From contig NC_060019.1 of NCBI RefSeq assembly GCF_021134715.1, positions 1,860,001 through 1,924,000 on the forward strand: 64,000 nt of DNA, written 5' to 3'. Source of the stretch: Daphnia pulex (Eukaryota; Arthropoda; Branchiopoda; Diplostraca; Daphniidae). A model generated the notes under the pieces. The model did no database searches and was not told the origin of the DNA. It saw only the letters and a program-made list of their open reading frames with translations. This document shows, piece by piece, positions 16,521 to 53,200 of this stretch (its first letter is position 1; each line of letters starts with the position of its first letter). The position numbers and the translations under genes were made by a program.

Positions 16521-17839
16521 TCATTTACGTAGAGCGCTAGCCACCGAAGCGCCCATTTTAGTGCGTCGGTAAAAGCGGGTAAAGGTTGACTCCAAATTCC
16601 AGTTTCCAGCCGCCAGAATCGCTTCTGTCGGCACCCCAGAATTAGCCGCATTCGAAGCGGAAGCGCCTCTCGTCTAATTGGCCGAATAGATCGACGTGTC
16701 AACGCCCGCGTCATTCAAAACAAGCTTGAGCCACCACGCCACTGTTGAGGCCCCTACTGAATTATAAGAAGGTCTTAGCCCGATGAACAGCGATCTTGGC
16801 CCGTCTTTTTTACGCCGTTGATCCGCTGCTGAGACGAAGTCCCTCAAAGTTTCGACCGTGCATGCTAGCGAAGTGGGCATTAATTTATCTATGGTAATAA
16901 CTTGAAGGGAGGAGTTCCGCTGGGATTTTTTAGGTTTCTGAAGAGCAAATCTTGCCTGATTATTTAAGAAAATCACCGAATCTCGGTCGATGCTGGCAAG
17001 CTCCGACACCCTACAAAGCGAAGAAAGAGCCAGCAACATGGCTAACTTCATCAAGAGGTTCTTGAAAGTAAAATCACTATTTGGACCTAGGGAAATCAAG
17101 AATTCTATTACTGAATCCACCTCCCAGAAACGTGAATATTTAGGGGCGGGGGTTTCCTGTTGTACACCCCTCGCATCAATTTCACTACCAGTGGGTGCTT
17201 GCCCAAATCGAAGCCGTCCAACTTGCCCAAAGTTGACGACAGCATAGAGCGATTGACGTTTATCGTTCTGTACGCTTTTCCGGCACTAACCAGCGACGAA
17301 AGAAAATCTAGTACCTTCGCTATAGGAGGCGACATGGGATTGGTCTCCTCTCGAACACACCAATCACCCCAATTACTCCACGCGGACTGGTAGGCAGTTG
17401 ATGTGGTGTTGCGCGACCCTCCCATGAGGAGTTCGACCACTCGGCTCGAAAGGCCGCTGCTTTCGAATTGTCTCCGGACAATCTCCAGGCGACCAACAGG
17501 AGCGATTCCGACAGCGGGTGTGGTTGGCCTGCTGGGCCCAGCAACAACTGTTCTCTCGGGAGAACTATGGTCGGCTCGCACGCTAGCTCTAGTAGCAGCG
17601 GGAACCAGGTCTGCGCTGGCCAAAAGGGGGTCACCAACGTGAGCTCCGCTCGGTCTCTCAACGCTTTCATCAGACATCTCTGAATCAGGCAAAATGGGGG
17701 AAATGCGTAGCCTAATACGCCCGCCCAGCCCAGGCTGAAGGCGTCTACCGCCATTTTGTCCGGTTGCTGGCCCCAACTGACGAACTGGTCCAGCTGTCTG
17801 TTCCAGGCCGATGCGAACAAGTCTACCCTTAGGCTCCAA
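16521..17839 (-). pseudogene. Tyrosine recombinase of the DIRS element (inactivated)
   Basis: The N-terminal SAM-like region lies at 17839-17108, including YQSAWSNWGDWC. A 1-nt shift near 17130 follows, then the catalytic region, with SSLCRVSELASI providing the first catalytic Arg. At 16674-16676 a TAG stop interrupts the frame. The residue before the stop is Asn where DIRS recombinases carry the catalytic His of the His-x-x-Arg box; the Arg follows right after the stop (TRGAS). The same frame then runs on to the catalytic Tyr context (TRFYRRTK) and ends at 16521-16523. Both the missing His and the stop abolish strand exchange. The N-terminal frame overlaps the end of the RNase H frame, as is usual in this family. 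Confidence 0.85.
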
Positions 17840-18245
17840 CGAGCTCTCAGGTGACTGAAGACGGACGGGTTGAGTTTCCAGTCGCTCGAGTCCTGGCCTG
17901 CTCTTGATAGGCGATCGGCAACAACATTTTGCGTCCCCGGCAGATATTCAGCGTTAATTGTGATTGAGCGTCGCTCACACCACGCCGTTATCTCCTGGCT
18001 AATCCTACACAGCCTCTGTGACCTGGAGCCTCCCGAATTATTAACATAATGGACTGCCGTTGCGTTATCCATCATGAGCCTCACCGATACCTGAGACGCC
18101 ATGCTTATAAATGATTTTAATGTGAATAAGGCCGCCATCAGCTCCAGCTCGTTTATAAGGCGCAAACGATCTTGATCCGCCCATGGCCCTTTGGCACTGG
18201 CGTCATTCAAGGAGGCGCCCCACCCCGAAAGAGAGGCGTCAGAAA
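17320..18245 (-). pseudogene. RNase H and DIRS C-terminal domain
   Basis: The RNase H catalytic residues are all visible in order: Asp in FSDASLSGWGA (18245-18215), Glu in INELELMAALF, Asp in RLMMDNATAVHYV and Asp in NVVADRLSR. Downstream comes the block VDLFASAWNRQLDQFVSW, which is typical of DIRS elements (the region often annotated as a methyltransferase-like domain), ending near HPLSESLLLVAWRLSG. The domain is open over most of its length, but it is separated from the reverse transcriptase by an extra T in a 7-T run (plus strand A run near 18245). Confidence 0.8.
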
Positions 18246-19127
18246 AAAATGATTAAATCGGGATCACACACAGAAAATGGCCTGCCATTGGACTCACGCA
18301 CGTTGTTTGACCACCAATCCAACTCAGCCCTCGACTCTTCATCCAGCTGGATTTTTGTGGATAAATTTCCACCTGCCCTTGCTGATTGCGTGATGTAAAG
18401 CCGCTGGATGTTTCGATAGTGCCCCTGGGCAAACGGAATAGCTTGGATCGCCCAAGCTAAATTCCCTAGAATTTTCGCCACCTCCCTTAATGAGATGTCG
18501 ATGGTTGAGCGGGCTTTGCGACAAATCTCAATGATTTGCTCTATTTTCTTGGGGAGGAGAGAGACGGATAACTCCTTGGAGTTTTCCAAAAGTCCCAGAA
18601 ATTCTCTTTCCTGCGCGGCCACGCCCACAGATTTCTCCCAGTTAATCAAAACCCACATTTCTCTAATATTTCTACTACAAGTATGAAATCGCGCTCTGCC
18701 CCCTCCTTGGTTTGGTTAAGGATGAGAAAATCATCCAATTAGATTACAATTCGGATCCCTTCCTTCTTAGCGAGGCCACTACGGGTTTAAGGATCTTTGT
18801 GAAGGTCCAGGGGGCGGATGATAAACCGAAACAAAGGCACGAAAATTGGAAAAGTGACCCTTCCCACATAAATTGGAAAATTTTCTATCGTCCGAATGGA
18901 TGGGAATGGTAAGGTAGGCGTCCTGAAGGTCTATTTTCGTAAAATAATCCCCTTTCCTTACCATTCCCTTCATTACGCTGACGCCCTCCATTTTGAAATG
19001 TAATTTTTCTACAAACTGATTTAACCCTTTTAAATTAACTATTGGTCTAAAACCAAAAGAACTTTTTGGGATATGTCCTTTAGCTTCTTCGAGCGGGATT
19101 CTCTCCACCGCCCCTTTTTCTAGCAAC

Positions 19128-19614
19128 TGTAAGGATTCTGAGATGCGCCTTTCTATTTTTGATCTGGGTCAAAGTTGATCCAAGTGCCTTTCTCTTTTGT
19201 GACCTGTTGTGACCTACCAATTTCCCTTTCTCTTGACCTATTATTTCTCACTTTCCCTTTACTTGTTTTTGGTATAAAACCCAACGCAGAGTCTCATTCT
19301 TTAGCTCAGTCTTTCTGGCTCATTCTGTAGTTCAAGTTGACTCTGGTTATGTAGACGAGATGAGGCCCCAGTCAGTATACTCTGGGATGCTATTCCTAGT
19401 CTATGTAGCTATTGGAAACTTACTATGTTCTATACCTTTTTCTTCATTAAATGTATTGATTATTATTTGTATGTCGGCTTGAAGAGCCTAAGTACCATGT
19501 TGGCTGATCAACTTTCATGTAAGAACAATACAAACTAATTACTTTCAACAAAGGATCTTTTAGTTGACGATTGAGTGGAAAAAGCCACACGGCCTATCCG
19601 CTTGATTCGTTACA
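19128..19614 (+). repeat. 5' LTR of the TRIM-like element
   Basis: 487-bp direct repeat beginning TGTAAGGATTC and ending GATTCGTTACA. It holds a TATA box (GGTATAAAACCC near 19270) in plus orientation and an AT-rich downstream part suitable for 3' end formation. Confidence 0.93.
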
Positions 19615-20022
19615 CTGGTGGCAGCGATTACCGAACTCAAAGCTACGAGGAGATTGGAGAACCTTGGCCAACCGCCCACCTACGACGAAGGACGGCCATA
19701 CACTCAACATCTTCAAGCATCACGACCATCCCAGGAAGAACAATCGAAGAGGATCCGCTCAGAACTGACAATTCATTTTAGAGTAGACTGTATGAGTAAT
19801 ATTCCAGTTGAATTAAGAATTAAGAAACGTGAACCAAGTTATTGACTAATATTGACTAATTCAAGAACTATTGATGGGAGCGAGAAAGAAAAAATTCTCG
19901 CCAGCCATGATTAAAGAAGACAATTAAATTTTAATGCATAAATGTGTATCTCACTGTCAGTTCTGTGCAGTTTTATGTCTCTTTATAGGTTGCGGGACGC
20001 AACCTGTCGGGAGGGTGAGTGA
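19615..20022 (+). other. Internal region of the TRIM-like element
   Basis: 408 bp between the LTRs. It carries a candidate primer-binding site at its left end and a polypurine tract at its right end. A 75-codon frame at 19618-19845 has no recognisable Gag or protease motif and is probably non-functional, or a remnant of a leader/Gag region. Confidence 0.8.
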
Positions 20023-20509
20023 TGTAAGGATTCTGAGATGCGCCTTTCTATTTTTGATCTGGGTCAAAGTTGATCCAAGTGCCTTTCTCTTTTGTGACCT
20101 GTTGTGACCTACCAATTTCCCTTTCTCTTGACCTATTATTTCTCACTTTCCCTTTACTTGTTTTTGGTATAAAACCCAACGCAGAGTCTCATTCTTTAGC
20201 TCAGTCTTTCTGGCTCATTCTGTAGTTCAAGTTGACTCTGGTTATGTAGACGAGATGAGGCCCCAGTCAGTATACTCTGGGATGCTATTCCTAGTCTATG
20301 TAGCTATTGGAAACTTACTATGTTCTATACCTTTTTCTTCATTAAATGTATTGATTATTATTTGTATGTCGGCTTGAAGAGCCTAAGTACCATGTTGGCT
20401 GATCAACTTTCATGTAAGAACAATACAAACTAATTACTTTCAACAAAGGATCTTTTAGTTGACGATTGAGTGGAAAAAGCCACACGGCCTATCCGCTTGA
20501 TTCGTTACA
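20023..20509 (+). repeat. 3' LTR of the TRIM-like element
   Basis: 487-bp copy of 19128-19614 with no difference found by eye. It is followed directly by the target duplication CAAC at 20510-20513. Confidence 0.93.
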
Positions 20510-20699
20510 CAACGAATCGACTTCCGCCTGACAAATCGCTGCTAGTTCTGGGCTAAAGGACATATTCCTCCCCGGGCGATCTTGAAACGGAATCCCGGTA
20601 AAAGGAATTCTAACCCCAACTGAAATGGCGTTTAAAATCCAATCATCAGCCGTCAGAGACGGCCAAAAGGACGAAAAATGGCGTACTCTTCCCCCAACC

Positions 20700-21938
20700 T
20701 TAATGTCTACCACAGGTTGGCGCACATACAATGGCGAAGCAAGTAATTTTGGAGAGACTAACCTTGAATTCCTGTTGAACGAGCCTTGCCTGGCACCTCG
20801 TTTGTTGAAGCTGCCGTGCAGATTGAAGCCGGAACCGGATCCCGATCTCCCGCCCTTCACGGCACGCGATGCGCCGGCACTCTTGCTGTGTCTACCAGAT
20901 GTGGAAGCGGACGGTTGTCCTCCTGGGCGTCCCAAGGCCTTCAGTTTCTGGTCATCAGAAGCGTCCTTAACCATGCCTCTGAGAAAGGTACGGCCGAAGA
21001 GAAGGGCACACTCCTTTGGCTTGAACCGGGTGGATTCCGCCAACAGCGACTCAAAACGCGGGTCCGTCAGTCGCAAGATGTTTTCTCGCCTCTGGATGGT
21101 GATATTATGGGACGCGTTGCCCCAAAGCTGCAAGGCTGATTCGGCCGCGCTAACCATAAGGGGGTCGACCACACCACACGTACAGAAGCGGTTTGGCGAT
21201 GCCTAAGATCTTGTATTGGTCCGCGGACAGGGACTTCTCTTTCGCCTCCGCTTTGCTGGCATCTCCTCCTCTTACTTCTTTTAGTCTTCGAGCCATGGAT
21301 GGGTCCAGTTTTGGAACTTGAAGGTCAAAGGAGCTCTTCCCAAAGGTGGGAACAAAATTCTCTCTTAGCTGTTTCGACTCCGTTGGCTTCTGAAGAGTAG
21401 TCATCCAGGTCCTGAGCTGTTTCGAGCGAAATTTGTCCAGCTGGAAACTCTTCGGGAGAAGTGGCTCCTGTTCAGTAGGCAGAGGGATATTAACTGCATC
21501 ATCTGCCTCGTGATCCGACTCGGCATCTCCAGGGGGCTCCGGATCCTCTCGCTGGCCACGACCGCGGATTGTTGAACGGCTTCGAGTACTGTCCGCTGAA
21601 CGGCTGCGACGGCTAGGGTTGCGACTCGCCGAACGGCTGCGGCTGCGACTCACCGAACGGCTGCGGTTCCGGAAGTGACTGCGGATACTCTCGATGCCTG
21701 CTGAATCTCCTCTGCCACGTGTCGGTGAAACGCTGCGCGAGCCGCTACGGCTCCTGCTTCGACTTTGGCGTCTTCCTCGGCGGTCCAAATCACGCTCTTC
21801 AGCTCTTCCTCTCTCTTGGGGGTAGCTACGCAGGCTGCGACGACGAAGGGTGGCTGCCTTCGAATCAGAATCAGAATCTGAACTCGAAGAGCTATAGGAA
21901 GACGAACTTGACGAACTTGAAGAACTAGACGACGACAT
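20700..21938 (-). pseudogene. Gag-like protein of the DIRS element with an SR-type domain
   Basis: The likely start is ATG 21938-21936, followed by a poly-Ser run. Next come a long Arg-Ser region (RSRSRSGSRSVSPT, SRSVSRSRSRSASRN) and an acidic hinge (DAESDHEADDAVNIPL). The conserved Gag region has blocks RTWMTTLQKPT and PKLDPSMARRLKEVRGGDASK. After a 1-nt shift near 21175 the frame continues with ALQLWGNASHNITIQRR and SLLAESTRFKPKECALLFGR, then a Gly/Arg/Ser-rich tail that probably binds RNA. The upstream in-frame ATG at 22127 lies inside the terminal repeat and is less likely to be used. The Arg-Ser region resembles splicing-factor RS domains. Confidence 0.75.
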
Positions 21939-22058
21939 GTTGTCACTATGAAAGCTGAAAAAGGTCTGAAGGGGCGTTGGTCCCATATGGCCTGAGGTGG
22001 TCTTCCCTTTTTTGTTCTTTTGTTTCTTTGAAAAATCAGCTGATGAATACAAGGTCAA

Positions 22059-22137
22059 CACCGTATAGATCCAGGTCGAGCCACTTGTACAACAATTCAA
22101 GGCGGTAGGCACTGGGTCAATAACCACCGGCTGATTA
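22059..22137. repeat. Right inverted terminal repeat of the DIRS element
   Basis: Reverse complement of the left terminal repeat. The best-matching core is 22059-22097, and a looser match extends to about 22137. It lies at the 5' end of the minus-strand genes. Confidence 0.8.
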
Positions 22138-23549
22138 CCGCATTATTATTAACCAATCATCCGCAACTTTGAATGTGAATGTTGGATGGGGGGTAGTAGA
22201 GTGGGGAGGATGAGGATCGGTGTACACGCCGTTGTATCAATAGCGCATCACATAACCCACACACTTGGGTCTACTTTTCTGCTTGCGGATTGTGATCCCT
22301 CGGAAACCCAAATCCAAAACCGATCCGAGGGTAGGACTCCATCCTAGTCTTTGTTGGAAATCCTCTGCGGTGGTTTTTCTCGAAAGGGGAAAACGGTTTT
22401 TGAAGGGGTCGGGTTTGGATTTGAAGGGGTGGGGAAACGACTTGAAATGGCCGCTGAAATGTAGGAATTGATTCAAAAGCGGGTTGACTTTGAATCAATT
22501 TATACAACGAATGAAAAATATAACCCTGGCAAAATTAATACAACTTATAGTTAAGAATGTTATCAATCGTGTTATGAAGAAAAAAAAATTATTCCAGAAG
22601 GTGCGTTGAAAAAAACATTTTTTCCAACACACCCACCAGATCATTCAAATGAGTTTATTCTAGTTAAAATTAATGTTTTTTTAATTTAAAAAAAATTAGC
22701 TTTATGTGCATTGCTCTATCAAATAACAATATGTAAAAATTTAAAAAAAAATTGCTATAATGAATAGCCTTCATTTGTAAAAAGAAAAACGCACAAAATT
22801 AAAAAAGTTAATGGAAACTGAAAAAACGTTTTTTCAAAATTTCATAACTTTTTCCCTAATTAATTTAAAAAAAAACCTTTGAGCGACCATATCGGATGGT
22901 GCTCTTTTACACACACACCAAATTTGAAAAAAATCCGAGAGATCGCGGCGGTGACGATTAGGTGAATACCCTTGGAATGACCTAATGCTGTCTCAGTAAA
23001 AAAGAAGAACATTGGAATAAAAACGGATTTACTAACCATAGATGAATTAACCCACGAAAGTTCATCTTACTACCACAAAGGATCGCCTTTGAGGCAAAAC
23101 GGATTTGTTTTTTAAGTCATGTCAAAGAAATAAGGGCTGCGACGCACAGTTGGAATGATTGAACCAACCATTTTCACACGGTTTACACCTAATTATAGTT
23201 GGATGTCCACTAAGGCTGAATTGTAACCAGTTTCATCCAAGCTCTCCTTGTAAAAAAGTGATCCTATACAAACAAATTAAAAAATAGGAATAAAACCAAG
23301 ACTAATCCGACATTTTCTCATTTGACTTTTAAAAATCCCGCTTGCTTACTCGTGATACATGAGTCCCCCGCTAGATGTAGTCAGCCTGATCGTTATCATC
23401 GCTACTATCTCTGAAACAGCCGTAGAGACTGACACCAAATTGCTTGTGGCATAATTTTAAAGTTCAACTAGGACAAATTCAACAGCTTTAATAGATGATA
23501 GCTGCTCTGATTCAAACTTGGAGAGTTTGGTTTTAAATCGGCCACCGTC
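22138..23549. other. Intergenic, AT-rich
   Basis: Overlapping open frames on both strands at 22237-22507 come from a locally GC-richer patch and have no family signature. The rest is poly-A/T rich. The last ~100 bp should hold the promoter and 5' leader of the first protease homolog; no clear TATA box was recognised. Confidence 0.5.
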
Positions 23550-24624
23550 ATGAAACTGGGGACTGCCATTTCCATTTTTCTCTGCTGTCTTCTCCATAAC
23601 GCTTTAGCAGGTACGCAAACATCTCAATTTAAATGTTTTTTTTTTATTTATTTTAATGTTTATTTCGTAATTTTACAGGAGAAAATGTGATAAATGACCA
23701 AGAGCGAATTTTAGGAGGAACTAAAGCTAGAGAAGGAGAATTCCCATTTGTCGTTTCCATCACGACAAACGGTGAGCACCTCTGCGCCGGATTCATTTAC
23801 AATCAGCGATTTATCGTCACGACAGTCACATGCGTCCAAAAGTAAAAAGAAAATCTAAATATTACAATTAATTCCCGGATAAATATTTGTCAATATCCAA
23901 CAGTTTGTCACCGTCGCAAGTTTCAGTTGTTGTAGGACAATTGTCTCTCATCTCCAGCACCGAGCCGTACGAGCGTCGATATCAAGTCGTCAGCATTATT
24001 CCACACGAGAACTATGACGCGAATCTCGGCTTGAATAATCTGGCAGTCATCGAGGTCGGTACATAGAGATCAATCATTATCGCACAGCTGTCAAAATTTC
24101 GACTTTTGGTATACACAGACATCTTCGTCAATGGCATTCACTGCGGGCCATGTCGACTTCATCTGCTACAACGAAGATAACACGACTTTTCCAGAAGCTA
24201 CTGTCATGGGCTGGGGTGCTACTCAGGTATATAATCATGCACAAAGAAAACAAACGGCAGAGTATGTGTGGAATCCTACACAAAGATGGGATTGCTTTCT
24301 CTATTCGTTTCTATATAGGAAGGAGGATTGCCTTCGATTGATTTACTGAAAGCCAGCGTTACTATATCGACCGAGTGCGTTATCTACGGTAGCGAAGAGT
24401 ATCAACCCAACTACATGATCTGCGCAGGTAGTGATACTGCCAGTCCTTGTCACTACGACGAAGGGTCGCCGCTAGTTCAAGACAATATCGTCGTCGGAGT
24501 TGCATCGAGAAATACAGGATGCAAAGAGCTATTCTTGCCGACACTTTATACTCGACTGTCCTCTTATTATGCGTGGTTGAACCGGAATGCTGGCCAACAA
24601 CCGCCAGCTTGCAGTGCAGCCTAA
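23550..24624 (+). CDS. Secreted serine protease homolog 1 (inactive S1 fold)
   Basis: Exons 23550-23610, 23679-23841, 23904-24054, 24119-24226 and 24319-24624; 262 residues with consistent phases. A signal peptide (MKLGTAISIFLCCLLHNALA) precedes a degenerate activation site (ERILGG, residues about 28-33). The chymotrypsin scaffold is intact: GEHLCAGFIY...TC for the first disulfide, MGWGA, MICAG and CHYDEGSPLV. The catalytic triad is lost: His57 is Thr (TTVTC), Asp102 is Asn (LNNLAV) and Ser195 is Glu (YDEGSP). It is therefore a pseudoprotease, presumably extracellular or in the gut lumen. Unlike its neighbours it has no intron between the MICAG and CHYDEG blocks. A polyadenylation signal lies at 24679-24684. 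First of five tandem paralogs. Confidence 0.92.
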
Positions 24625-24678
24625 ATTTAAAAAAATAATAATAAATAAATAAGACTGTTTTGTAACTATTCAAATGTA

Positions 24679-24684
24679 AATAAA
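24679..24684 (+). promoter_or_regulatory. Polyadenylation signal of protease homolog 1
   Basis: AATAAA, 55 bases after the stop codon of the gene at 23550-24624. Confidence 0.6.
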
Positions 24685-24957
24685 GCAATATGAATTTAAG
24701 TCTACTAGATAAACTGGTTTTACCGAACCCTTAACAGGCTTTTATTGACTTAGATAATATCATAAATTCTTTGACGTCTACAGTACGTATACGAGCAATG
24801 GAGGTGAAAATATCAAAAAATAAAAAACAAGTTAAGCAACGGGCACGATAATGGGTTGGACAACGCGATAATCTTGTCGACGGGAACGAATGCTGACTTT
24901 TTAAGAAATAAAAAAAACCCGAACGAATTTTTAAGGTCGCTTTGTAACAGCAGTAGA

Positions 24958-26171
24958 ATGAAGTTTGTTATTGTGATAGCCTTCATTTTCATAGGATCAG
25001 CCTTGGGTAATAGTTTACGTATAGACATGCTTTAATCAATCGTTAATCTGATTTGACTTTTGATTTGACTGGGGCCTCTACTGCAATAATTGCAGCCATT
25101 TACCAAGGCGATGACGCTTTACTTGGGGAATTCCCATACACGGTTTCTCTGACTCACTTTGACGAGCACATCTGCGGCGGATTCGTCTACAGTAACTATT
25201 TCGTCCTCACAGCGGCCTCCTGCTTGATCGGGTAACAAAACCAAATTGTTTTTAATTTGTCTAAGACGGTAGGTTTGCTGGACTATTTTTACTTTTTCCC
25301 TCTATCGCTTGAAAAAAAAATTCCCTTTTCCCTTAATAATCATAATATGGAGCAAGCAAGATTAGGATTTTATCAGTTGACTTTGAATCATGTCAAACAA
25401 AGCAACGGACAACATTATTGGGGAAAATAATTTTATTTCATTTGTACCTGTTAAAAAAAAGGAGATCGGAATGGGATGTAGCGGTGGTCGTCGCCCAATA
25501 TTCACTAATCCTGCAGGATCCGGAGGAGAACCGCATTCAGGCGCGTACCTTCTACATCAATCCAGAGTACAATGAAACGTACCGCACCAACGATCTAGCG
25601 CTCATCAAGTTGAATCAACCAATAACTTACGGGCTCTACGTCAACTTCAGTTATTACGACGAAGTGAATGACACCTATACTTCCGCCGAGGTCATGGGCT
25701 GGGGTGCAATTATGGTAAACCTGTCAAATCGAGTTTGCATAACAAAACAAAAAATACACAATCGAATTATTATTATGAGCAGGATGGCGGACCCCCATCT
25801 ACGAAATTACGAAAAGCCATTGTGAGTCTTCCGGCCGATTGTCAGTCTTACGGAATTGAAGAGTTCGTACTCAACACAATGATCTGCGCTGGCATCCATG
25901 GTACACCAACTTTTGCAGTGATCCATTTAGATAATAGAGAGTTTTTATTTTCGGAGATTTAGGACAGGACAGATCGAGTCCGTGCGAATTTGATCAAGGA
26001 TCGCCTCTGGTTCAGGGTGACTACGTCGTTGGAATTGCATCTAAAAATCGCGGATGCGGCGGAAATTTTGCTCCGACCATCTATACTCGACTGGCCGCTT
26101 TTTACCCATGGATATCTAACGTTGCCGGAAAACAACCGATTCCATCATTGATGGATATGGGAGACTATTAA
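24958..26171 (+). CDS. Secreted serine protease homolog 2 (inactive S1 fold)
   Basis: Exons 24958-25006, 25096-25231, 25465-25714, 25783-25900 and 25963-26171; 253 residues. A signal peptide (MKFVIVIAFIFIGSALG) leads into a divergent N-terminus with no Arg-Ile-x-Gly-Gly activation site. His57 is Ser (TAASC), Asp102 is kept (TNDLALIKL) and Ser195 is Gln (FDQGSPLVQ), so it cannot hydrolyse peptides by the serine mechanism. The disulfide cysteines are all present. The exon carrying DLALIKL also carries the MGWGA block, which in the other four copies is a separate exon, indicating loss of one intron in this copy. The fourth donor and fifth acceptor are the least certain junctions. The C-terminus has a short extra tail (SLMDMGDY). 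Confidence 0.88.
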
Positions 26172-26611
26172 AAAACGATAAGCGTTCCTGTACATTGTAA
26201 ACATAAAAGCCCCTATATCATACGTATTTGAGTCCCATAACACGCATGAATTTCAATGTTATATTGCAATCGAATGTCTTTTTGGAGGGAGGATTCTAAT
26301 ACACAAAAATGCAAGTCTTTAGCGTATTTTTTTGTATCGATGAAACACCCACCCAAAAAAAAATGTTCCAGGTCATTCCAAACACGAAACCTTATCTGGC
26401 GTCAATCAATATCAATTACCCCCCGCCGCTATCAATTTATCCCCGCCAGTGTAGACGACTCTCTTGCACGACGTTATCTCATTTCAAACTGCCCTATGTG
26501 AATGTCTTGACAACATCTGACGAGACTGTTTACACGCTGCCGAGATCTAACGTGGCAACAGTGTTTTCGTTCCATTTTAGTCTAAACGAGAGTATCCAAC
26601 TAATTGACAGG
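26172..26611 (+). other. Intergenic gap between protease homologs 2 and 3
   Basis: The open frames here (26256-26722) have no protein signature and run into the next gene's leader and first exon. This is the likely promoter and 5' leader of the third protease homolog. Confidence 0.5.
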
Positions 26612-27757
26612 ATGAAGTGTCTAACGTTCTTGATTGTCACGGTCATCGCCTTCGCTGCGACAGGTACGTCTATCTGGTATTTAATTTTAAGAAACTCGAA
26701 TTCGACGTCCCATGTAAGCTAATAGTGTTTATACCCCCCAGGAGTATCGGGTAATGGGCGAATGACTAACGGCGCTCAGGCATCAGCCGGTGATTTCCCG
26801 TACATGGTCTCGGTTACAACTGGCGGAGAACACATTTGCGGAGGATTCATCTACAATCGAGATTGGGTCGTAACATCTGCTTCTTGCGTTTACCTGTAAA
26901 ATTGGATTCGAGCCGGTGAAATGATTAAATAAATAGCCTACAGCGTAAATTATTAATGACAGGTATTTGCCGAGTCAGATACGAATCACTGTGGCACAAC
27001 TGTCACTAATCAACGAGGATCCTGAAGAGAAAGTCTATCCCATCTACTTAATATCCGTGTTCGAAGGTTACGATTACTCGTCCGGCTTACATGATATCGC
27101 TATGCTGCAGGTCTCATATTGTGAAATCATTAACAGATTATATAACGTGAGAAGAATTTTAAAATGTTCTTACTTGATTGGCGTTTCCCTTAGACGTCTT
27201 CACCCATCGAATTTAGCACCAACGTCAACTTTATCCCGTACAACGAGGCGACAGAAGCTCCTTCCGACATTGGCACCTTCATTGGATGGGGAGCCACTTT
27301 TGTAATTAAAAATAATTAAAATTCATTTTTATTTTTAAAATTAAAATGTTCATAATTACAGGACGGTGGTTTAGCCACCGCCAGGCTGCGCTCCATTCAA
27401 GTTTCATTCGGATCAGACTGCAGAGATTACGGCGCGGATCAGTTTTATCCAGCTTACATGATCTGCGCTGGAGGCTGTAAGTTAAAAAAGAAATAAATAA
27501 ACTTTAATTGTAGCATTAAGTAATGTGATTTTTTGAATAATACAGCCGCAGTAGATACTGGAAGCCCCTGCCAATACGACGAAGGTTCGCCTTTAGTGCA
27601 AAACATCAGTGGAACAGTGGGCGTGGTTGGAATCATGTCCAAGAATGCCGGTTGTGGAACCAATTTCCAACCAACCATTTACACCAGAATGTCTCCCTAT
27701 TATCCTTGGTTCAATAAGCTTGCCGGAGAACAGCCTACATTGAAGAAACTTTATTAA
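26612..27757 (+). CDS. Secreted serine protease homolog 3 (inactive S1 fold)
   Basis: Exons 26612-26663, 26742-26895, 26963-27110, 27194-27301, 27362-27476 and 27546-27757; 262 residues, with the full six-exon structure shared by copies 3 to 5. The signal peptide is MKCLTFLIVTVIAFAATG. Scaffold blocks are GEHICGGFIY, HDIAMLQ, FIGWGA, MICAG, CQYDEGSPLVQ and TIYTRMSPYYPWF. His57 is Ser (TSASC), Asp102 is kept and Ser195 is Glu (YDEGSP). The activation site is degenerate (GRMTNG), so classic zymogen cleavage is doubtful. A polyadenylation signal AATAAA lies at 27807-27812. Confidence 0.92.
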
Positions 27758-27806
27758 CATTTTTTTTTATTCTACGAAGAGTATTGGACCCCTACGACAT
27801 TTATCA

Positions 27807-27812
27807 AATAAA
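27807..27812 (+). promoter_or_regulatory. Polyadenylation signal of protease homolog 3
   Basis: AATAAA, about 50 bases after the stop codon of the gene at 26612-27757. Confidence 0.6.
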
Positions 27813-28415
27813 TACATGCGCTATGACTTATGAATCATCTAATATATAGTACGAAAATGCGTCGTTGAGTTCTTTAATGGTAAAAGCGATATCCTTAAAC
27901 AATAAACACATAATATTGGATGGCACCTCTTAATTTCTTAACAATTTAATTTGAACTGATATCTAATAAATTGATAAGAATGCATACGGACATGGATTCT
28001 GACATTTAAGAACGAATCACCGAAGCTTTGTGGTTTACCGTGTCCACTCGATAAGGCAATCACAATTTATCTACACTTTTGACGTGTTAAAACGCATTCC
28101 ACAACAGTTGCAATGCTTCGCCTTGCAGAGGATTAAACACATTTTTCTTGATCCAAGGGAAATTTCCAAATGATTTCGTCATCTAACATCAGAGTAAAAC
28201 CGACATCAAATCCTGATCGTGGAGTCGCATAAATCCAGGTCACGTCATCAACGTTCACGTGCTATCAGTTATTTACTTTCGTATAGCAACGCTATCGCCT
28301 ATTGGGTTTTTGAATTTCACATCCTAACGGGTCTAAGACAAATCTCTGTGATGTCGGGAACTCAACAAAAGCTCGTCTGCAATTGTTGGCCAGTCAAAGA
28401 GAAGCAAGTATCGCA
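27813..28415 (+). other. Upstream region of protease homolog 4
   Basis: The region contains AAATCCAGGTCACGTCATC near 28230, shared almost word for word with the region upstream of homolog 5 (near 30150), as are the TATCAGTTxTTTAC stretch and the GTTGGxCAGTCAAAG leader segment. These shared blocks mark a duplicated promoter and leader. No gene is seen in the gap. Confidence 0.6.
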
Positions 28416-29533
28416 ATGAAGCTCACAGCACTATTGACCGCTCTCGCCTTCGTCGCCCTAACCTCAGGTATTTACTAGAGAATCTTATATTTAAGAAATG
28501 TGAAACTCTAAATTTACAGTTGTGATTAGGGGCACCAAGTGAAGATCGCATTTACGGTGGTGCTACAACAACAACCGCCATACCTTATTTGGTTTCGATA
28601 GTAGTGAATGAACAGCACATCTGCGGCGGATGGATTTACAATAATGACTGGATTGTCACAACTGCCGCTTGCGTTGCCGAGTAACTCACTTTTAAACAAA
28701 ATAATTTTTGTTATTTACAAAGCCTTTAATGTAATTGTATTTGAAAAAGTTACGAACCCAGTCAGTTGAGTGTCATCGCTGCTCAGGTATCCTTGCTTCA
28801 GCCGGACACAGACGAAGTTTCGGTTAATGTTTTCAAGATTTTCCGCTACAGCACCTACGACCCTTTAACTAAGTCGGACGATATCGCTATGCTGCAGGTA
28901 AAAAACTTTAATTTTAAATATCAAGTTTAAATTAAAGTTTTCACAATTTTTACCAACGCAATAGCTCGCTACACCTCTGACTTTTGGTGCTAACGTCAAT
29001 TTTGTTCGTTACGAAGAAGCAGTTGAAGATGGCACCACTGACGCCGTTTTTGCAGGATGGGGTGGCACCTTAGTAGGGCTAATTCATCTAGAAAACAAAA
29101 CGATTTTAAATGATAATAATTGAACTAATTCTTAGGAAGGCAATCTACCATCTACAAAACTGCGCACCATGACCGTGACTTTTCCTGGTGACTGCTCAAC
29201 TTATGCGGCTGATGAATACAAGCAAAATTACATGCTGTGCGCTGGCACCGGTAACTGCTGTCTTACTTTGCTTGTTGTTGTTGTTGTTTTTTTTTCAATT
29301 AATTGCATTTTTCTTTTTCTTTGTTGACACTAGACACTGACACTGCCTCTCCTTGTGAATACGACGAAGGATCCCCATTGGTTCAAACTATCGATGGTGT
29401 AGAATATGCTGTGGGTATCATGTCAAAGAATCTGGGTTGCGGACTTGCCCCCGTGCCATCAACGATCTACACCCGCCTTTCCGCTTACTACGCCTGGTTC
29501 AACACGATCGCTGGACTCCAACCCCCACTTTAA
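28416..29533 (+). CDS. Secreted serine protease homolog 4 (inactive S1 fold)
   Basis: Exons 28416-28467, 28530-28680, 28750-28897, 28965-29072, 29136-29250 and 29334-29533; 257 residues. The signal peptide is MKLTALLTALAFVALTSG. The activation-site region reads DRIYGG. His57 is Ala (TTAACV), Asp102 is kept (DDIAMLQ) and Ser195 is Glu (YDEGSPLVQ). Disulfide cysteines are conserved (HICGGW...AAC, GDC...MLCAG, SPCEYDEG...LGC). It is very close to homolog 5 in protein, intron positions and upstream DNA, so the two are the youngest pair of the array. Confidence 0.93.
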
Positions 29534-30340
29534 ACAAAAAACAGATTTTCAGTTAGCATTTTTTTTTTTAATAATTGGAAAAATCAATAAGACGTGCTGT
29601 CCATCCCAAAACAAGAAAAATACACACGTAACAAAATCTAAACCAATGTTTTATCGACTGATCAAGTCAAGGGGTTTGTCTTTTAATCCAATCAAAGGGA
29701 TTCGTGTGAGCTGTTTATAACTAAGGTTGATATATGGGAAGCTTAGGAAGAGTTCATAATGGCACCTAAAGAAAATAGTACCAAGACAAGGTTTAACTTA
29801 CTTATTGGCTCGGAAACAGTCTTGATGAAAGAACGTTGATAAACACCTAGCCTTAGTTTCACAACTGCTGGTGCTATCAATGCACATAACATCTTGGCTT
29901 AATTCTTCATTGTGTAAAAATCGATTCTTCCCAAAATTTCATCACCTGTGGCAATAAAATGAAAACATTATGGATAAGAATCGGATTTTAGTTTTGAACA
30001 TAACACTACGGAATTTTACAATATTAAATCTAAAAAGAACTTAAGAAAACGGGCAGAATAACAGAAAACGTTTCCACACACTTTCTTTTGAATCATACCC
30101 GGAACATAATTAAAGCTACGACGTCGATTGGTAGTTTGAAAGTCGGAAAAATCCAGGTCACGTCATCGTTGAATTATCAGTTGTTTACGTTCAGGCATAG
30201 GCTACAAGGTGGTAGGTTCAGGTGATAGCATCAAGATTTAAATCCCATATCTGTTGGCGTCATGAAATCTTGCGTACGCCAAACTCAACAAAAACCCATC
30301 GGCAATCGTTGGTCAGTCAAAGTGAAAGAAAAGTACCGCA
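29534..30340 (+). other. Gap between protease homologs 4 and 5
   Basis: The last ~230 bases are a diverged copy of the sequence upstream of homolog 4 (shared AATCCAGGTCACGTCATC and the leader before the ATG). The first part is AT-rich, with no gene seen. Confidence 0.55.
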
Positions 30341-31459
30341 ATGAACCTTACAGCATTATTAACCGCTCTCGCACTCGTCGCCCTAACTTCAGGTATTTAC
30401 TATTAAATTATAAAATGTTCAAAAAAATGTAAAGGAAAATTTGTGAATTCGAATATTAGGAGCGCCAAGTGAGGACCGCATTTACAATGGGGTTGCATCT
30501 ACGACAGCTATACCTTATTTAGTATCGATCGTGGCGAATGAACAGCACATTTGCGGCGGGTGGATTTACAACACCAACTGGGTAGTCACGGTTGCGTCTT
30601 GCCTGGTCGAGTAAATAATTAAACTGAAAAAAAAAATTGTCATCAACATTTACCTAATACTTTCCATTTTGATTCTTTTGAACAGTTACGAACCTAGTCA
30701 GTTGACAGTCATCGTTGCTCAGACGAGCTTGATTCAGCTGGACGCAGATGAAGAATCGATTAATGTTTTCAAGATCATTTCCCATGAGGCATACAACCCA
30801 GTAACCAAGTTGAACGATATCGCCATGCTACAGGTAACTGCGTTTTAAAGAATCCCGTTTTTTTTTTCTCTTAGCTTGTTTATCTCACAATCCTACAGTT
30901 GGCCAAGCCCATCACTTATGGTGCCAACGTCGGTTACCTTCCCTACGAAGAGGCAGAAGAAGTTGCTGGCATACCTACTACGTTTGCTGGATGGGGTGGT
31001 ACTTCAGTAAGTAACCTAAAATTAATAATAACAAATCATTTTTAAAATTCTGAATATAACTGGCCTGCTAGGAAGGAAACTTACCATCGACAAAACTTCG
31101 CACAATCGCAAGTGTGACCGTTCCTGCTGACTGCACAATTTCGTATCCCGCAGACGAATTTTCTTCGAATTACATGCTGTGCGCTGGCTCCAGTAAGTTT
31201 TCCTATTGTTGAATGTTTTGCATTAGAAATTGTAAGTAGTAGTTGCTGATTATTTTTCTTCGTGACAGCCACCGACACTGCATCTCCGTGCCATTTCGAC
31301 GAGGGATCGCCACTGGTTCAAACAATCGGTGGTGCACAATATGCTGTAGGAATCATGTCCAAGAATAAGGGTTGTAAAGCTGGTGCCGAGCCTACAGTCT
31401 ACACCCGCCTCACCGCATACTATGCTTGGCTCAAGTCATACGGTGGTAACCAGCAATAA
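30341..31459 (+). CDS. Secreted serine protease homolog 5 (inactive S1 fold)
   Basis: Exons 30341-30392, 30460-30610, 30686-30833, 30899-31006, 31072-31192 and 31269-31459; 256 residues. The signal peptide is MNLTALLTALALVALTSG. The activation-site region reads DRIYNG. His57 is Ser (TVASC), Asp102 is kept (NDIAMLQ) and Ser195 is Glu (FDEGSPLVQ). It has the same exon structure as copies 3 and 4 and ends the array. A polyadenylation signal AATAAA lies at 31492-31497. Confidence 0.93.
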
Positions 31460-32434: not shown

Positions 32435-34395
32435 TTACAAATAACGATTAAAGATTGCCTCACAATGTTCCTGTTGTCCCGAAATCATTTCCGGTTCTCC
32501 GTGCTGATGGATAAACTCCTCACACTCTTCCAAATCAGTCAGTCCATTGGATATTTTAAGGCCAAATCCCGATTCGAAAGAAATGTACCGCGCCTAAAAT
32601 AATAAAGCGTGTTTTTTTAATAGCTACCGTATCCCCTTCTCGCAAATAGTTTATCAATTGCACGGTATTGAAATTTTCTTGTCCATACAAAGAATACCTT
32701 CAAGTGTCTAGCCATAATTCCATCTTCCACGATTTTTGATGCATTACGTAGTCCACGAGCGAACGAATCCATGGCTGCGATGTGAGCTATGAATAAATCT
32801 TTAGTATTAGTCGACTCTCGGCGCACTTTGGCATCGAAATTCAATCCTCCAGGCTGAACGCCGCCCTATACATAGTCACAGAGCGAATATCTTAGGCTAT
32901 TTCTTTGGTGCATTCAATTATGCTGGAGCACAAAAAACAAACCTGTCGAATCACTTGGAGCATCACAGCTGTGCAGGCTCGAATATCCATGGGGAACTGA
33001 TCCGTATCCCAACCGAGATCCGGTGATCCTGTGTTGGCATCGATGGATCCCAAAATCCCGAACCTTCATTCAAAGATTGAATCACAAAAAAAAAGTTGTT
33101 ATTCAACACACATTATTGTTTGTTATTAATATTACTTACGCGGAAGCCATAATGACGTCATGCTCGTATCCATGCCCAGCCAGAGTGGTGTGATTGGGTT
33201 CAATGTTCAATTTGAAATCATTTTGGAGATTGAACTGACGCAAAAATGACATGACAGTTTGAGCGTCGTAGTCGTACTGATGTCGAGTAGGTTCTTTGGG
33301 TTTCGGCTCGATAAGTAGCTGTCCTTCAAAACCAATCTTCTTCTTGTAAACTATCACGGTACAATTTTTCAATTATATGATGCGGAATTTGGACGATCAA
33401 TAAAAAGAACTTACCTAGTGCCATACGTAGGAAATTTGCCATGTTGGACATTTCTAAGTTTAGATCCGTGTTGAGAAGTGAACTGTTTGATAAATTTCAC
33501 TTGCACTAAGTAAAATGTTTTATTGTTAGAGGCTGATAATTGATAGATTACCTGTAACCTTCACGGCCACCCCAAAAGACGAAATTCTTGGCGCCCAATT
33601 TTTGGCCTATTTCCAAACCTTTCTTGACTTGAGCTGCTGCATATGCGAAAACATGCGCATTAGGGTTGGTAGCCGCTCCGTTGGAATAGCTATTGAAAAC
33701 AAAGCACGATTAGCTTTTTGATTGACTGATGGTTAAAATAAAATAACATACCGTGGATGAGCAAAGAGGTTGCAGGTATTCCACAATAATTGAACGCCAG
33801 TTTGACGCTGTAAATTCAAAGCCAAGTCAGACATCTCATCAAGGTTTCTATTCGTCTCTTCCAGTGTCTGACCCTCAGGTGAAATATCTCGATCGTGGAA
33901 TGTCCAATATTTGACGCCTATATAGCCATTAAGGAATAGTATTCAAAATGTGAAAATGTATCAAAGCCATTATTACCTAGTTTTGTGAAAAATTCGAATG
34001 CTGCTTCTAGACGGCGTTTGTAGTTTTCTATAGTTTCTGTGCCGTCGTCCCAATTTCGCTTAATAGTTGCTTGGCCGAACGGATCAGCTCCTACAACAAA
34101 GAATGAGATTAAATGGGCACCATTATTGTTCAGAACAAAAATATCTATTTGAAATTGCTTTACCTGTTCCTCTGAAAGAATGCCAAAAACAGACTGAGAA
34201 TCGAAGCCATTCTTCCATCGAGCGGCCCAAAATGATTTCAGTTGCATTGTAGAATTTGAAGCACAGCGTTTCATCGACGTCCGCATCCGGATTAAAAACT
34301 ATTTGAGGGGCATCTGTTATTCAATTTCAATTAATAATTACTGTATAATGGAAAAAATGTAAGAAGCCAATGGAATTACCATTAAAGAAGCTCAT
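32435..34395 (-). CDS. Xylose isomerase
   Basis: Interconverts D-xylose and D-xylulose (the family also acts on glucose and fructose) using two divalent metals. Ten exons: 34395-34380, 34313-34164, 34090-33977, 33917-33752, 33689-33552, 33482-33415, 33350-33140, 33063-32943, 32865-32698 and 32593-32435; 436 residues, the usual length. Active-site blocks are all present in order: [26 protein letters not shown] (catalytic His-Asp), [25 protein letters not shown] (metal Glu and Lys), [29 protein letters not shown] and LNFDAKVRR. The first coding exon is only 16 nt. No signal peptide is seen, so it is presumably cytosolic. The gene is intact, with animal-type introns, so it is not a bacterial contaminant. 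Xylose isomerase is rare among animals. Confidence 0.95.
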
Positions 34396-47280: not shown

Positions 47281-50200
47281 TCAAGGATTGTAACTCCAAG
47301 ATCCATCCGGACGTCTGGCGTTGACGTTGGAGGTGGAACTGCGGCTGTGCTTCCTGACGGCTCGTCCGACGCTGTTCCTTCCGGACGACACAGGTGGATG
47401 CTGGTGGACGTGATGGATGGGCGTGTTCTTGGGGTAGATGGTCTCCGCTTCGCCGTAGAGGCAGTCGCCGGCCGGCTCGCACGACGGCCGGTACGGCGGC
47501 ACCGGCGATCGATTCAGGTGGCGGTAGACGTGGGCCGGATGCGGAGGCGGAGGAGCTTGCGACATGCAAGGCAACGTCGGATGGTGCCCGTACAAAACGC
47601 CGTTGACGTCCGCCTCGATGCTGTTGGGCGAGTGGCTGTCATCCGGACGGCCTCTGGACACCACCGACGGGGCCGACATGAGCGACCGGCACGTATCCAT
47701 CCCGCTGATGGGCTTCAACGTGAACGTGGCGTACGGAGTGATGTCGCCGTCGTCGTCATCATCGTCGTCGTCTATTCCGGGCAAATAAATTTTTAGGCGC
47801 CAAAATTCAAAAAAATTTAAATAAAGGCGGGAAAATTCAAATTGACAAAATGTACCGAAATCGATTTGCTTCCGCAAGGAGTAAATGCTTCCGTTGACTC
47901 CGTTGGCTCTTGGCAACGACCGGCCGTGCTGCTGCGGCTGGTACTGATGGTTGTTGTCGTCGACCGGCTGGTTGTCCAGCTGCTCGGCCACCGTCCTCAA
48001 CGAGTACTCGCTCTTGGCCGACATTCCGGCAGCTGCGACGGCCGAGGCCGCGTTGGCCTGATACTCTTTCCGCTTGTGGACGACGTAGGTGATGGCGGCC
48101 AGCGAGAAGAGCAGCATCGTCCCCGAAATCGACATGGATGCGATGACAATCAACGATTCGTAACTGATGGACTGGCCGGCAGATGCCAACATCGGCAAGA
48201 CCTCGAAGGCCGTCCCGTTGTACTCGACTGCGTGTGAAATTGAAACTTTAAAAATCGAATCGATATTTTTTTTTTATCTTTTCTTTGTTTAACCTTTTTT
48301 GCCGGACATCCGCCGGACGGTGTAAGAGGCGTGGTGGACTCCGGAGTCGCTAGAGGCCGTCAATTTCAGATGGTACGTTTCGTCCTCGATAAAATCGCTG
48401 ACTTTCAACATGGGCTGCTCGTCCGGATTGAGATTAGACGCCAGAGTGTTCCAGCTCCCGTGCGAGTGATCCGCCGAAGGACTGGACAACACCGGCCCTT
48501 CTTTCTCCACTTGGAAGGAATTGATCCGGCAGCCACCGGTCGGCCAGTGATCCAAATGGAGGAATAGGGTGGCCGGCATAGCGGCAGAGAAACCGAATAG
48601 ACTCGACAATTCCGGCCAGTTGGCTGGACCCGATCCGCGGGTCATGGCTCTCAGTAAAGGACTTTTCTGGCCCAGGCCGATTTGGTTTCTAGCCTGGACT
48701 TGGAGCTCGTACTGGGTGCCGCAAAGGAGTCCGTCCAGCACGGTGCCATCCTCGCTTCCGTCGACGGATTTCTCTTGGACGGCCGAGCCGGAGAATGCCG
48801 GCCGATAAAGAACAATGTACTCCAAGACGGCCAAAAGGGTTCCCAACCGGCTGTTGCTGCTGGACGGTTTGTTCCACCACAACCGGATGGAAGAAGTCGA
48901 CGTCGGAGTCACCGACAATTGAGGGACTTCCGGCGGACGGAGTAGATGCACAGTGAAGACCACAGCGTCCCGTCCGTGTTGGTTGCGGACCGTGCAGGCG
49001 TAGTCGCCTTCCGTGTTCCTGTCCACATCCAGCAGCTGGATGGCGCCATCTTTATCCCAGCGGTAATTCAAATGCGGATTGCTGCTGAGCGGCTGGCCGG
49101 CAAAGGTCCAACTTTTCTCCACCGGATTTGTTCCAGCCGTGGGACACGGTAAAGTAATTTTGTCCGTCCGATGTTCTTCTTCGATCCAAATCGTCCTGGA
49201 GAATTCCAATATCTTGGCGCCATCTGATTGGTTGGGGATTAATTAGTTTATTTTTGGTTTGGCGGGAAATTTGAATTTTTGAATTTAAATTGTTACTTTT
49301 AGCCGCCGGAGAAATAGTTAAAGTTCTAGACGGGCGACTTTCTCCAGCTCGACCTTTGGCAGTGACGCTGATCTCGTACGGACGATTCTCCACGAGCTGG
49401 CCAATCTGGTGTTCCAAAGCGTTGTCCGATTCGTGATGCATGAACCTTTTCTGTGTTCATCAAAAGTTTTAGACACATTTTCCCAATTTGAAATTCAGAA
49501 ATTGAATCTCAAATATAATCTCACCACATCCTGAGTGACGGTGTCTTTGATTTGGATCACGTAGTGCGCAATCCGGCCGCTAGGGGGTGTCGAACGACGC
49601 CAAGTCACCAGGATCGAAGAGCTGGACAGGCTAACAGCTTTCACTTCATGGACGGCCACAGGAACTTGAAAAAATCAAATAATTTCAAATTAAAACGAAC
49701 GAAATTCGTTTTCAAATAAATTGTTCTTACCCGTTTCATCCGTTTGGCAGACGACCGGAACACTCAGAGGGCCACTTCCGGCTCGATTGAGTGCCGCTAT
49801 TTGGATGCTGTAATTCTGGTAGGCCTGCAATCCGTAGAGGACGGAATCCAGGACGTTCGGACCGACCCTCTTCGATTCCGGGCGGAGGAAAGATGAAACC
49901 TCGTCGGCTAAAACGATCCGATGCCGGTTGTTGCTGGAAAACACTTTGTAGAAAATCCGGAAGCCCTGCAGGTGGCCGTGGTATTTGGCCACGGTCGGAT
50001 GGGCCCAGGTCAGCTGGATGGCGTCGGCCGACAGAGTGACGCAATGTAAATTAACCGGAGAGGATGAAGGAGGAGCTTCCGGTGTGGTCAGGGACACCGG
50101 CGGATCAGATTCCGGGCCAGCACCCATTCGATTCAAGGCTCGGACGGTCACAGCGTAAACTGTGGCCGGCCGGAGGTCTTCCACCGTCACCTGGACACGA

Positions 50201-53200
50201 CGGACAGGTCTGAAATCCGTCGTCGTGTAGGCCACACTCCGCTGGACGATTTGGCCGTTTCCATTGGTCTCCAGGCAAGTGACGGTGAACGTAACCAAAC
50301 GGCCGTTCCAAGTTTCTTCACTGGGCGGCTGTCAAAAACGACAAATTAAAAAAATTGATTTAATAATCGAAATCAATTAAAGTTAATTGATTTAGAAAAA
50401 TAATTACCAGCCAAGAAACGAGTGCTGAGCGGGAAGATTTCGATTCCGCTTGCACGTGCCGCACTGGACCCGAAGGAACTTCTTCGTGAGTTTGGAACTG
50501 AAGCGGAGCGGAAGGCGGGCCGATTCCGGCCGAGTTGATGGCATTGACCTGGACCTCGTAGACGGTGAACGGATGGAGATGAGGGAGAGTGACGAGACTC
50601 CGCCCCCTGGCCTCGATCGTTTGATTGAACGTCCAGCCGATCGTTCCCGGCCGGGTGAGTTGGACCCGATATTCCAGCAATGGATCGATATCCTCGTCCA
50701 GCCACTGCAATTCGGCCGACCGGCTCTGGACGGACGTCAGCTGAAGTTGGCCAGGAGCCCTGGGAAGTTCTTCAATAAAGACAAAACACACAAAGTTGAA
50801 TTCTGGATGACTGGCAGTTTGCACGACGGCATTGACATTAGATTTACCCTGGACAATCAAGCGGATGTCGGTGGCGTCACTACCGTAAAGATTGGCCGCT
50901 TGACAGACGTACATTCCGCCATCATCCGCCTCGACCCGACTGATGTTCAGGTCGAGGAAATCCCGGCCGTCCGACGCCACACTGGAGAGCTGGAAACGAT
51001 CCATTTGCTGATGGGATTCGATGAGCTGATCGAACCGCTTCCAGTGGACGGTCATGGGCGGATCGCCGGAAGCTTCACACCGGAGAACAGCTTCCGATCC
51101 GGTTGGGAAAATGGCGCCACTTGTGTGAATCCGCACTTTGGCAGCCGCTGGATTGCGAATCAAAATTGATGGTAAATGGCGGAAATAGAAATGTGAAAAT
51201 ACACATCCGGCGGATTACCGTTGACGCTGATGCGGATTGTTTTAGACACGGCGTTGCCGATATTGTTGCCGGCCCTGCACTGGAAAAGTCCCTCGTCATT
51301 TTTGGCCATCTTGGAAAAACGGATGGATCCATCGGCTAATAATCCGATCTTGCTGGATGAATGGACGGGAATGTTGTTTTCACCTTAAACCAAAAAATTC
51401 AAATCAAATCAAAATCTTTTTGGCGGGAATGGATTTCAATTCACCTTCAATCCGGAACCAGCGGACGATGGGCGTCGGCATTCCGTGCACTTGACAGGGG
51501 ATGGAAGCCGGATAGTTTTCCAGCAGGGCGATATCTTGCGGCTCAACGATCCATTTGGGTGGAACTAATAAATGAATTGAATGAAATTTCCATTTGGGAA
51601 CAAATTTTTGGGGTAGACGGACCTTGAACGAGAAGAGTGGCGCTGTGACTGGCCGCTTTGGCCAGATTCCGGGCCGTGCAGGTGTAGATGCCACTGTGTT
51701 CTCCGCGGAGTTTCTTGAAAATGAGCAAACTGTGGAATTCGCCCGTCTGCATCTCGACGTTGAGATTATTGGCGATGGGCCGCCCATCTTTGGTCCAGCT
51801 GACTTTAATAGGCAAATCGCCGGAAGAGATGGAACAAGTCACTTGTGTACGTCCACTGTCCTGAACTTGGATGGGGAAACCAAACGGCTCAATCACCGGA
51901 GGCCCTGGAACCATTAAAAGATAATCATGAATTTGGTTTCAAAATGAATAATTAATTAATAAGGTTAATACGGATGATTTCGACGTAAAGGGCTTTCTTG
52001 GCCATGGATGAGCCGGAACCTTTGACCAGACAAGTGTACTCTCCATTATCGACACCTTGTTCCATAGTGGAGATCCTTAATGTTCCATTAGTAAACGGCT
52101 TGTACTTGGCGTCCGTATCTCTGATCAGCTGGCGGATTAAAACAATTCCGGTGAATTGAAACATTCCAAAGAATAATTAATTAAATTAAAAACTCACCTG
52201 ACCACCTCTTAGCCACGAAATGGATTGGACAGGATAGCCGGCAAACGGGCAATCAAGGTAATAATCCTGTCCGGCCACCGCCGTCTTGTTACCAGCCCAC
52301 CGGATGGCCGGAACTCCGTAAACGTTCAATCTGGCGCAGTGCTGCTCTTGAGAAGCCGCTATCGTGTCCAAATGATCCATCTGTCCGGCTCCAAGGGCCG
52401 GATAAATAATGGAACAGCAATAAAGTCCGCCGTCCTCCACTTCGGACGAACTAATGTTGAGATAACTCCGGATAATTCCGTTGTTGTCCAGCAGATGCGA
52501 CGATATCGAAACTCTGCTGAAGTCGAAAAGTTGGTTAAAGATGAAACTCACAAAAGTCGGAATTTCGTTTCTATTTTTTACCGTCCGGATGTGTAGGGAA
52601 TCGTCAAGGAATCGACAGTCCAGGCGATAGATGGCGGTGAAGGGCTGAAATTGCTGGCCAGAGAGCATTGCAGATAAGCCGGCCGGCCCGGATAGACCAT
52701 CTGTTCGTTGAAAACATCCGTCAGTCGAGACGGGGCCGTGTCGCGAACAATCAGCTCGGCGCTGGCCTGTACTTGCTGGTAACTGCCGGCCAGGGCTTGG
52801 GCGGTGACGGATTGCTGCTGGACCTGCCCACTCGTGTCCACCCGTACGAAGCACTGGTACATTCCGGAATCGGTCACAGCTGCCCGATTCACTCGCAAGA
52901 CGTTGGCCTGGGGCAGATAAAACCGCCCGCCATCTACTGCGATGTCCAATCCGTTTCGCGTCCAGCGGATGGACGGCGTCGTTAATCCAGGAGATAACAA
53001 TCCGGACACGTTGCATGTCAGCTCGGCCGGCTGATTGACCCCGACAACCTTTTAGAGAGCGGAGAACAACCCGGATGAGAAGAAAATAAAGAAAAGAAAT
53101 TTCATTATTCACATAGTGAAATGTTGATGAGCCGGCCCGGAGGGTCCGCTTCCCATCCACTTAAGAATAGAATAGTAAAAAAGGAGGGCAGGGGGAGATG

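Follow-up and report, generated by a model that had tools for sequence, protein, structure and literature searches.

Secreted proteins with an S1 (chymotrypsin-fold) domain in which at least one residue of the catalytic triad His57/Asp102/Ser195 is replaced are classed as serine protease homologs (SPHs). Clip-domain SPHs (PmMasSPH-1/2, PPAF-II and the CLIPA proteins) carry a clip domain, keep His and Asp and have Gly in place of Ser (PMC4372372). In Tenebrio molitor, SPHs make up 125 of 269 S1 sequences; the commonest residues at 195 in these homologs are G, T, N, L, V and I, with Glu among the residues found in one to four sequences, and His57 is most often replaced by Gln (PMC11172050). The scabies mite inactivated serine protease paralogues (SMIPP-S) are secreted pseudoproteases present in many copies, their lineage being one of gut proteases, and they are reported to interfere with complement (PMC7815109). 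For Daphnia pulex, section 8 of one paper puts the number of S1 loci above 200; the five detected enzymes that it treats all have the triad, and inactive members go unmentioned there (PMC2678069). Here we describe a Daphnia family of predicted pseudoproteases that is represented by five intact tandem genes, A to E, at positions 23550-31459 of the window, the whole 64,000-nucleotide stretch analysed (C3:1860001-1924000 of a D. pulex genome of 133,188,837 bases in 13 contigs).

The family shares with clip-domain SPHs a secreted S1 domain, a triad that does not work and a cleavable activation site, but it has neither a clip domain nor His57, and its residue 195 is Glu, Gln or Asp. In A to E only 17 to 30 residues, signal peptide counted, stand ahead of residue 16, which leaves no space for a clip domain, as a preliminary description made from the letters of this stretch had stated. 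With neither of the two clip-SPH features examined present in them, the window genes are best described as a family of non-clip SPHs. Like the non-clip SPHs of Tenebrio these are secreted single-domain proteins (PMC11172050); unlike them, the Daphnia family combines Ser57 and Glu195 across the whole clade. Like the SMIPP-S proteins, the family is multicopy, secreted and of gut-protease descent, and it may work as they do; the SMIPP-S proteins differ in being parasite proteins that act on a host. Crayfish hepatopancreas trypsin (PDB 2f91) has the same fold, cysteines and activation pair but retains H57/D102/S195, D189, G193, W215, G216 and G226; its identity to the 26 family members that carry the altered catalytic box described below has a median of 32% and a maximum of 37%.

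The models of A to E were built by hand, and in them every intron is GT-AG and internal stops number zero. Six exons make up each of genes C, D and E, the intron phases being 1,2,0,0,1 (Table 1), and when protein D was used as query in a spliced aligner the exons of E were recovered except for the last few residues. All five products are single-domain S1 proteins with a hydrophobic N-terminus, from which signal peptides were called by eye. Each matches the Pfam Trypsin family (PF00089) over the full domain and above the Pfam cut-off, with E values from 1.7e-33 to 7.8e-42, and the best solved relative of a profile of the five is crayfish trypsin 2f91 (E 1.1e-43), to which they were aligned for chymotrypsin numbering. 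The mature proteins have six cysteines in B to E and eight in A. Spliced models, Pfam matches and alignment together bear out the preliminary description, which had reported five chymotrypsin-fold genes with Thr, Ser, Ser, Ala and Ser at position 57 and, at 195, Glu in four copies and Gln in one. From A to E, residue 193 is Y, F, Y, Y and F, and residue 215 is R, K, K, K and K; all five have N at 216 and T at 226. DUF1986 appears as a secondary Pfam match in D, A and E, of which only D passes that family's cut-off (27.5 against 25.2 bits).

Searches of the same genome with D, A and two further family members as queries, whose counts are lower bounds, yielded 28 copies outside the window that were modelled; three broken ones (C3 1.6866, 1.6875 and 6.19 Mb) were left out, and the family thus comprises at least 30 copies, five in the window and 25 elsewhere. 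They cluster on C3 near 1.68, 1.72, 1.88 (the window), 6.61, 7.86, 12.30 and 12.33 Mb, and on C12 near 1.24 and 1.60-1.61 Mb. First exons are uncertain for several of the copies outside the window. In two of the searches all or part of C6:3784280-3785020 was the top match outside the family, at 32 and 43 bits and 29-31% identity. The best family exons reached 138 and 222 bits, although the scores of short family exons fall as low as those of non-family matches. The box C-x-[YFL]-D-[EQD]-G-x-P is present in 26 of the 30 copies, and the remaining four, all at 6.61 Mb on C3, have other boxes. Every one of the 30 mature proteins is acidic, with a net charge of -6 to -17.

No family model has the active S1A triad. 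His57 is found in none of the 30, and Ser195 in one only (C3:6612045), where it accompanies Ser57 and Asn102; relatives with an intact His/Ser pair, which we looked for among these 30 models, were not found. The family is almost certainly catalytically dead. The altered site itself is conserved at one end and not at the other. Among the 26 box-bearing copies position 190 is P in all 26, position 193 is Y in 22, F in three and L in one, position 195 is E in 23, Q in two and D in one, and position 197 is S in 23; position 215 is K in 22 and R in four, position 216 is N in 21 and non-Gly in all, and position 226 is T in 14, S in ten and G in two. Position 57, by comparison, is occupied by S (18), T (2), K (2), E (2), A (1) or F (1). 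When 228 columns are ranked by entropy, 190 is invariant and 215, 195, 197, 193 and 216 rank 40th, 44th, 46th, 52nd and 67th, whereas positions 57 and 192 rank 108th and 149th. Thus the Ser195 side is held while the His57 position drifts, and the constraint sits at 190, 193-198 and 214-216; of the fixed replacement site proposed in the preliminary description, the box stands and position 57 does not. Ser197, present in 23 of the 26, was considered as a displaced nucleophile and rejected as unlikely, as position 57 is without His and 193 is bulky.

Much of the protease is retained around this site. Six S1 proteins that have the triad share 39 invariant columns. The 26 copies keep 23 of these, among them GWG, G19, D194, G196, P198, S214 and the cysteines; another six columns are mixed, and ten are lost, half of them being 57, 193, 195, 197 and 216. 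Arg precedes residue 16 in 25 of the 26, the exception being B; G19 and D194 occur in all 26 and Asp102 in 22. Cys is present in 25 or 26 of the 26 at each column of 42-58, 168-182 and 191-220, which we take to be the disulfide pairings. The alignment shows that His57, Ser195, the oxyanion Gly193, Gly197 and Gly216 have been replaced. The fold, the S1 cysteines and the Arg15-Ile16/Asp194 activation pair are kept, and the activation switch is probably still in use.

The phylogeny, together with the lack of His57 in all 30 models, supports a loss of catalysis before the expansion, as had been proposed. In an IQ-TREE analysis (WAG+F+R4; 38 sequences, 231 columns) the 30 family copies formed one clade, split at 100/100 from eight outgroups, which were seven S1 loci of the same genome (two of them, L001 and L006, without Ser195) and the crayfish trypsin; the last is the nearest outgroup, and an eighth locus of the genome, L007, was excluded as a partial model. 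Branching order within the family is weakly supported. As for the suggestion that the box itself might define one clade, in the best tree the copies at 6.612 and 6.615 Mb fall beside A and the 26 box-bearing copies are not monophyletic, but a tree in which they are forced to be so is not rejected (AU p 0.163). The outgroups sample only a small fraction of the S1 loci of this genome, in which there are 184 exon-level matches, so there is a slight chance that an active relative nested in the family lies among the loci left out of the tree. L001 (C6:3784286-3785014) is a separate S1 homolog that keeps His57 and Asp102 and has Gly195, the usual arthropod SPH pattern. The 6.61 Mb copies (C3:6609500-6615600) are diverged relatives, two with Gly193-Asp194 and Ala195 and two with Phe193-Glu194 and Ser or Asn195; it is possible that they are intermediates in the loss of catalysis.

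The family genes are not decaying, which the preliminary description had also anticipated. Among 28 open-frame models, NG86 estimates of dN/dS were 0.128-0.369 in the 22 of 25 listed closest pairs for which dS could be estimated (D-E, 0.267; A against its near-identical copy at 1.719 Mb, 0.128), and these values point to genes that are very probably kept by selection. In 337 of 378 pairs dS either was saturated or exceeded 2, and most splits in the family are accordingly old. By parsimony, in 25 of the 26 copies, amino-acid changes stood to synonymous changes as 13:33 at positions 190, 193, 195, 197 and 215 and as 1669:1128 outside the nine motif columns. That these genes are merely pseudogenes of digestive trypsins in decay is therefore highly improbable: the three broken copies and a frame break in the model of one box-bearing copy at 7.8588 Mb would suit such a view, but 28 of 30 models are open, dN/dS is low in the closest pairs and the derived residues have been kept through synonymous turnover.

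We favour, at a probability of roughly 0.55, the reading that this is a Daphnia family of secreted single-domain non-clip SPHs without proteolysis, probably cleaved by trypsin, with a plugged or rebuilt S1 region and a binding role. A trypsin-like enzyme would cleave after Arg15; the new N-terminus would insert by Asp194 (Ile16-Asp194) and order the surface loops, just as happens in an active protease. Pro190, Tyr/Phe193, Glu/Gln195, Ser197, Lys/Arg215 and Asn216 would fill or re-wire the S1 and oxyanion region, where Glu195 and Lys215 might form a salt bridge. The mature protein might then act by binding in the gut lumen or haemolymph, its partner set by an outer surface that varies between paralogs; a binding or adaptor role is somewhat better than an even bet. 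The salt bridge is hinted at by the co-occurrence of E/Q/D195 and K/R215 in all 26 box-bearing copies and the absence of both from the four at 6.61 Mb, and the plug that it would form is a tentative proposal.

Several observations weigh against this reading. The 195/215 pairing may stem from a single ancestral event, too few independent events being at hand. Gene B is without the activation Arg, and the activation switch is thus not universal. Half of the ten lost columns are found away from the active site, and losses are therefore not limited to it. The motif columns were picked after the alignment had been inspected, and the Fisher p of 2.6e-5 for the contrast between 13:33 and 1669:1128 is consequently only a guide. 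Finally, the three broken copies and the frame break indicate that some members are dispensable.

The pattern of conservation could also be a structural scar, the conserved set recording one ancestral re-packing of a dead pocket that the fold requires, at a site without any role. The fixed positions are mostly interior and 57 and 192 vary freely, which is what such a scar would leave; alone, however, it does not account for the retention and expansion of some 26 copies. We consider it somewhat unlikely, and it is compatible with the binding reading preferred above if binding uses other surfaces. Conversely, P190, Y193-D194-E195-G196-S197-P198 and K215-N216 might form a newly evolved site for ligand binding or new chemistry, switched on by the ancestral zymogen cleavage in about 26 paralogs. 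This is unlikely. That 57 and 192 vary next to interior positions that are fixed appears to fit an internal plug better than a common ligand site on the exposed surface.

Two further proposals concern what a dead but folded protease might do. Canonical inhibitors bind their target proteases by docking at the S1 pocket and the oxyanion region. If these proteins were gut decoys that soak up protease inhibitors of cyanobacteria or pathogens and so spare the active digestive enzymes, the secreted, multicopy, fold-keeping family would suit the task in an animal with the number of S1 loci cited above (PMC2678069) and whose trypsins and chymotrypsins are targets of cyanobacterial inhibitors (PMC2873468). 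It is precisely the docking region that is altered, with Y, F or L at 193, K or R at 215 and a non-Gly residue at 216 in all 26 box-bearing copies, and because of this we regard the decoy as very unlikely. A role as immune cofactors, in which cleaved haemolymph homologs aid prophenoloxidase activation or bind microbes in the manner of clip-domain SPHs, is quite unlikely as well. Arthropod SPHs with such roles are known (PMC4372372) and the Arg15 cleavage site is kept in 25 of 26 copies, but the clip domain is missing and so is His57, which the described clip SPHs keep together with Asp; a term search of the main text available for a survey of D. pulex immune genes returned neither SPHs nor clip proteins (PMC2685406).

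We found no description of this Daphnia family in the literature, most subscription papers and all supplements being beyond the reach of the search, and the strings YDEGSP, DEGSPLVQ, FDEGSP and YDQGSP did not occur in the literature searched. The novelty lies in how large and coherent the group is; pseudoproteases themselves are already known, and dead proteases are common in arthropods. The group stands out in that one coherent replacement of the catalytic box extends across about 26 paralogs, which are under purifying selection and have kept the activation switch, and it offers, in a standard laboratory animal, a clean case for the role of the protease fold after the loss of catalysis. There is a consequence for annotation too: work on Daphnia and cyanobacterial protease inhibitors can include family members among the digestive trypsins although they are predicted not to cut.

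Table 1. Genes of the tandem array and their catalytic boxes (window coordinates; residues in chymotrypsin numbering).
Feature	Position	Exons	Strand	Residues 57/102/195	Remarks
Gene A, S1 pseudoprotease	23550..24624	23550-23610, 23679-23841, 23904-24054, 24119-24226, 24319-24624	+	T/N/E	last intron absent
Box CHYDEGSP, gene A	24448..24471		+		
Gene B	24958..26171	24958-25006, 25096-25231, 25462-25714, 25783-25900, 25963-26171	+	S/D/Q	Arg before residue 16 missing; a middle intron absent
Box CEFDQGSP, gene B	25983..26006		+		
Gene C	26612..27757	26612-26663, 26742-26895, 26963-27110, 27194-27301, 27362-27476, 27546-27757	+	S/D/E	
Box CQYDEGSP, gene C	27569..27592		+		
Gene D	28416..29533	28416-28467, 28530-28680, 28750-28897, 28965-29072, 29136-29250, 29334-29533	+	A/D/E	
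Box CEYDEGSP, gene D	29354..29377		+		
Gene E	30341..31459	30341-30392, 30460-30610, 30686-30833, 30899-31006, 31072-31192, 31269-31459	+	S/D/E	
Box CHFDEGSP, gene E	31289..31312		+		

Parts of the array have counterparts elsewhere on C3. The near-identical copy of A lies at C3:1718539-1719489, about 165 kb away (dN 0.006, dS 0.044), and the pair appears to be the product of a recent duplication or gene conversion. Two of the broken copies, at C3:1686650 and 1687500, adjoin each other and resemble C and D, which would fit a copying of part of the window array to that place, followed by decay.

Three other features noted in the window lie on the minus strand. Long overlapping open reading frames at 16674-22142 read as retroelement-like, and a Pfam search with two of them (17108-17944 and 17320-18249) gave no match. 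Adjoining the array at 33918-34295 is a partial xylose isomerase-like gene (PDB 1a0c, E 2.1e-6), and at 48289-53048 is a Dscam-like gene with Ig and fibronectin type III exons and a match to the DSCAM C-terminal domain.

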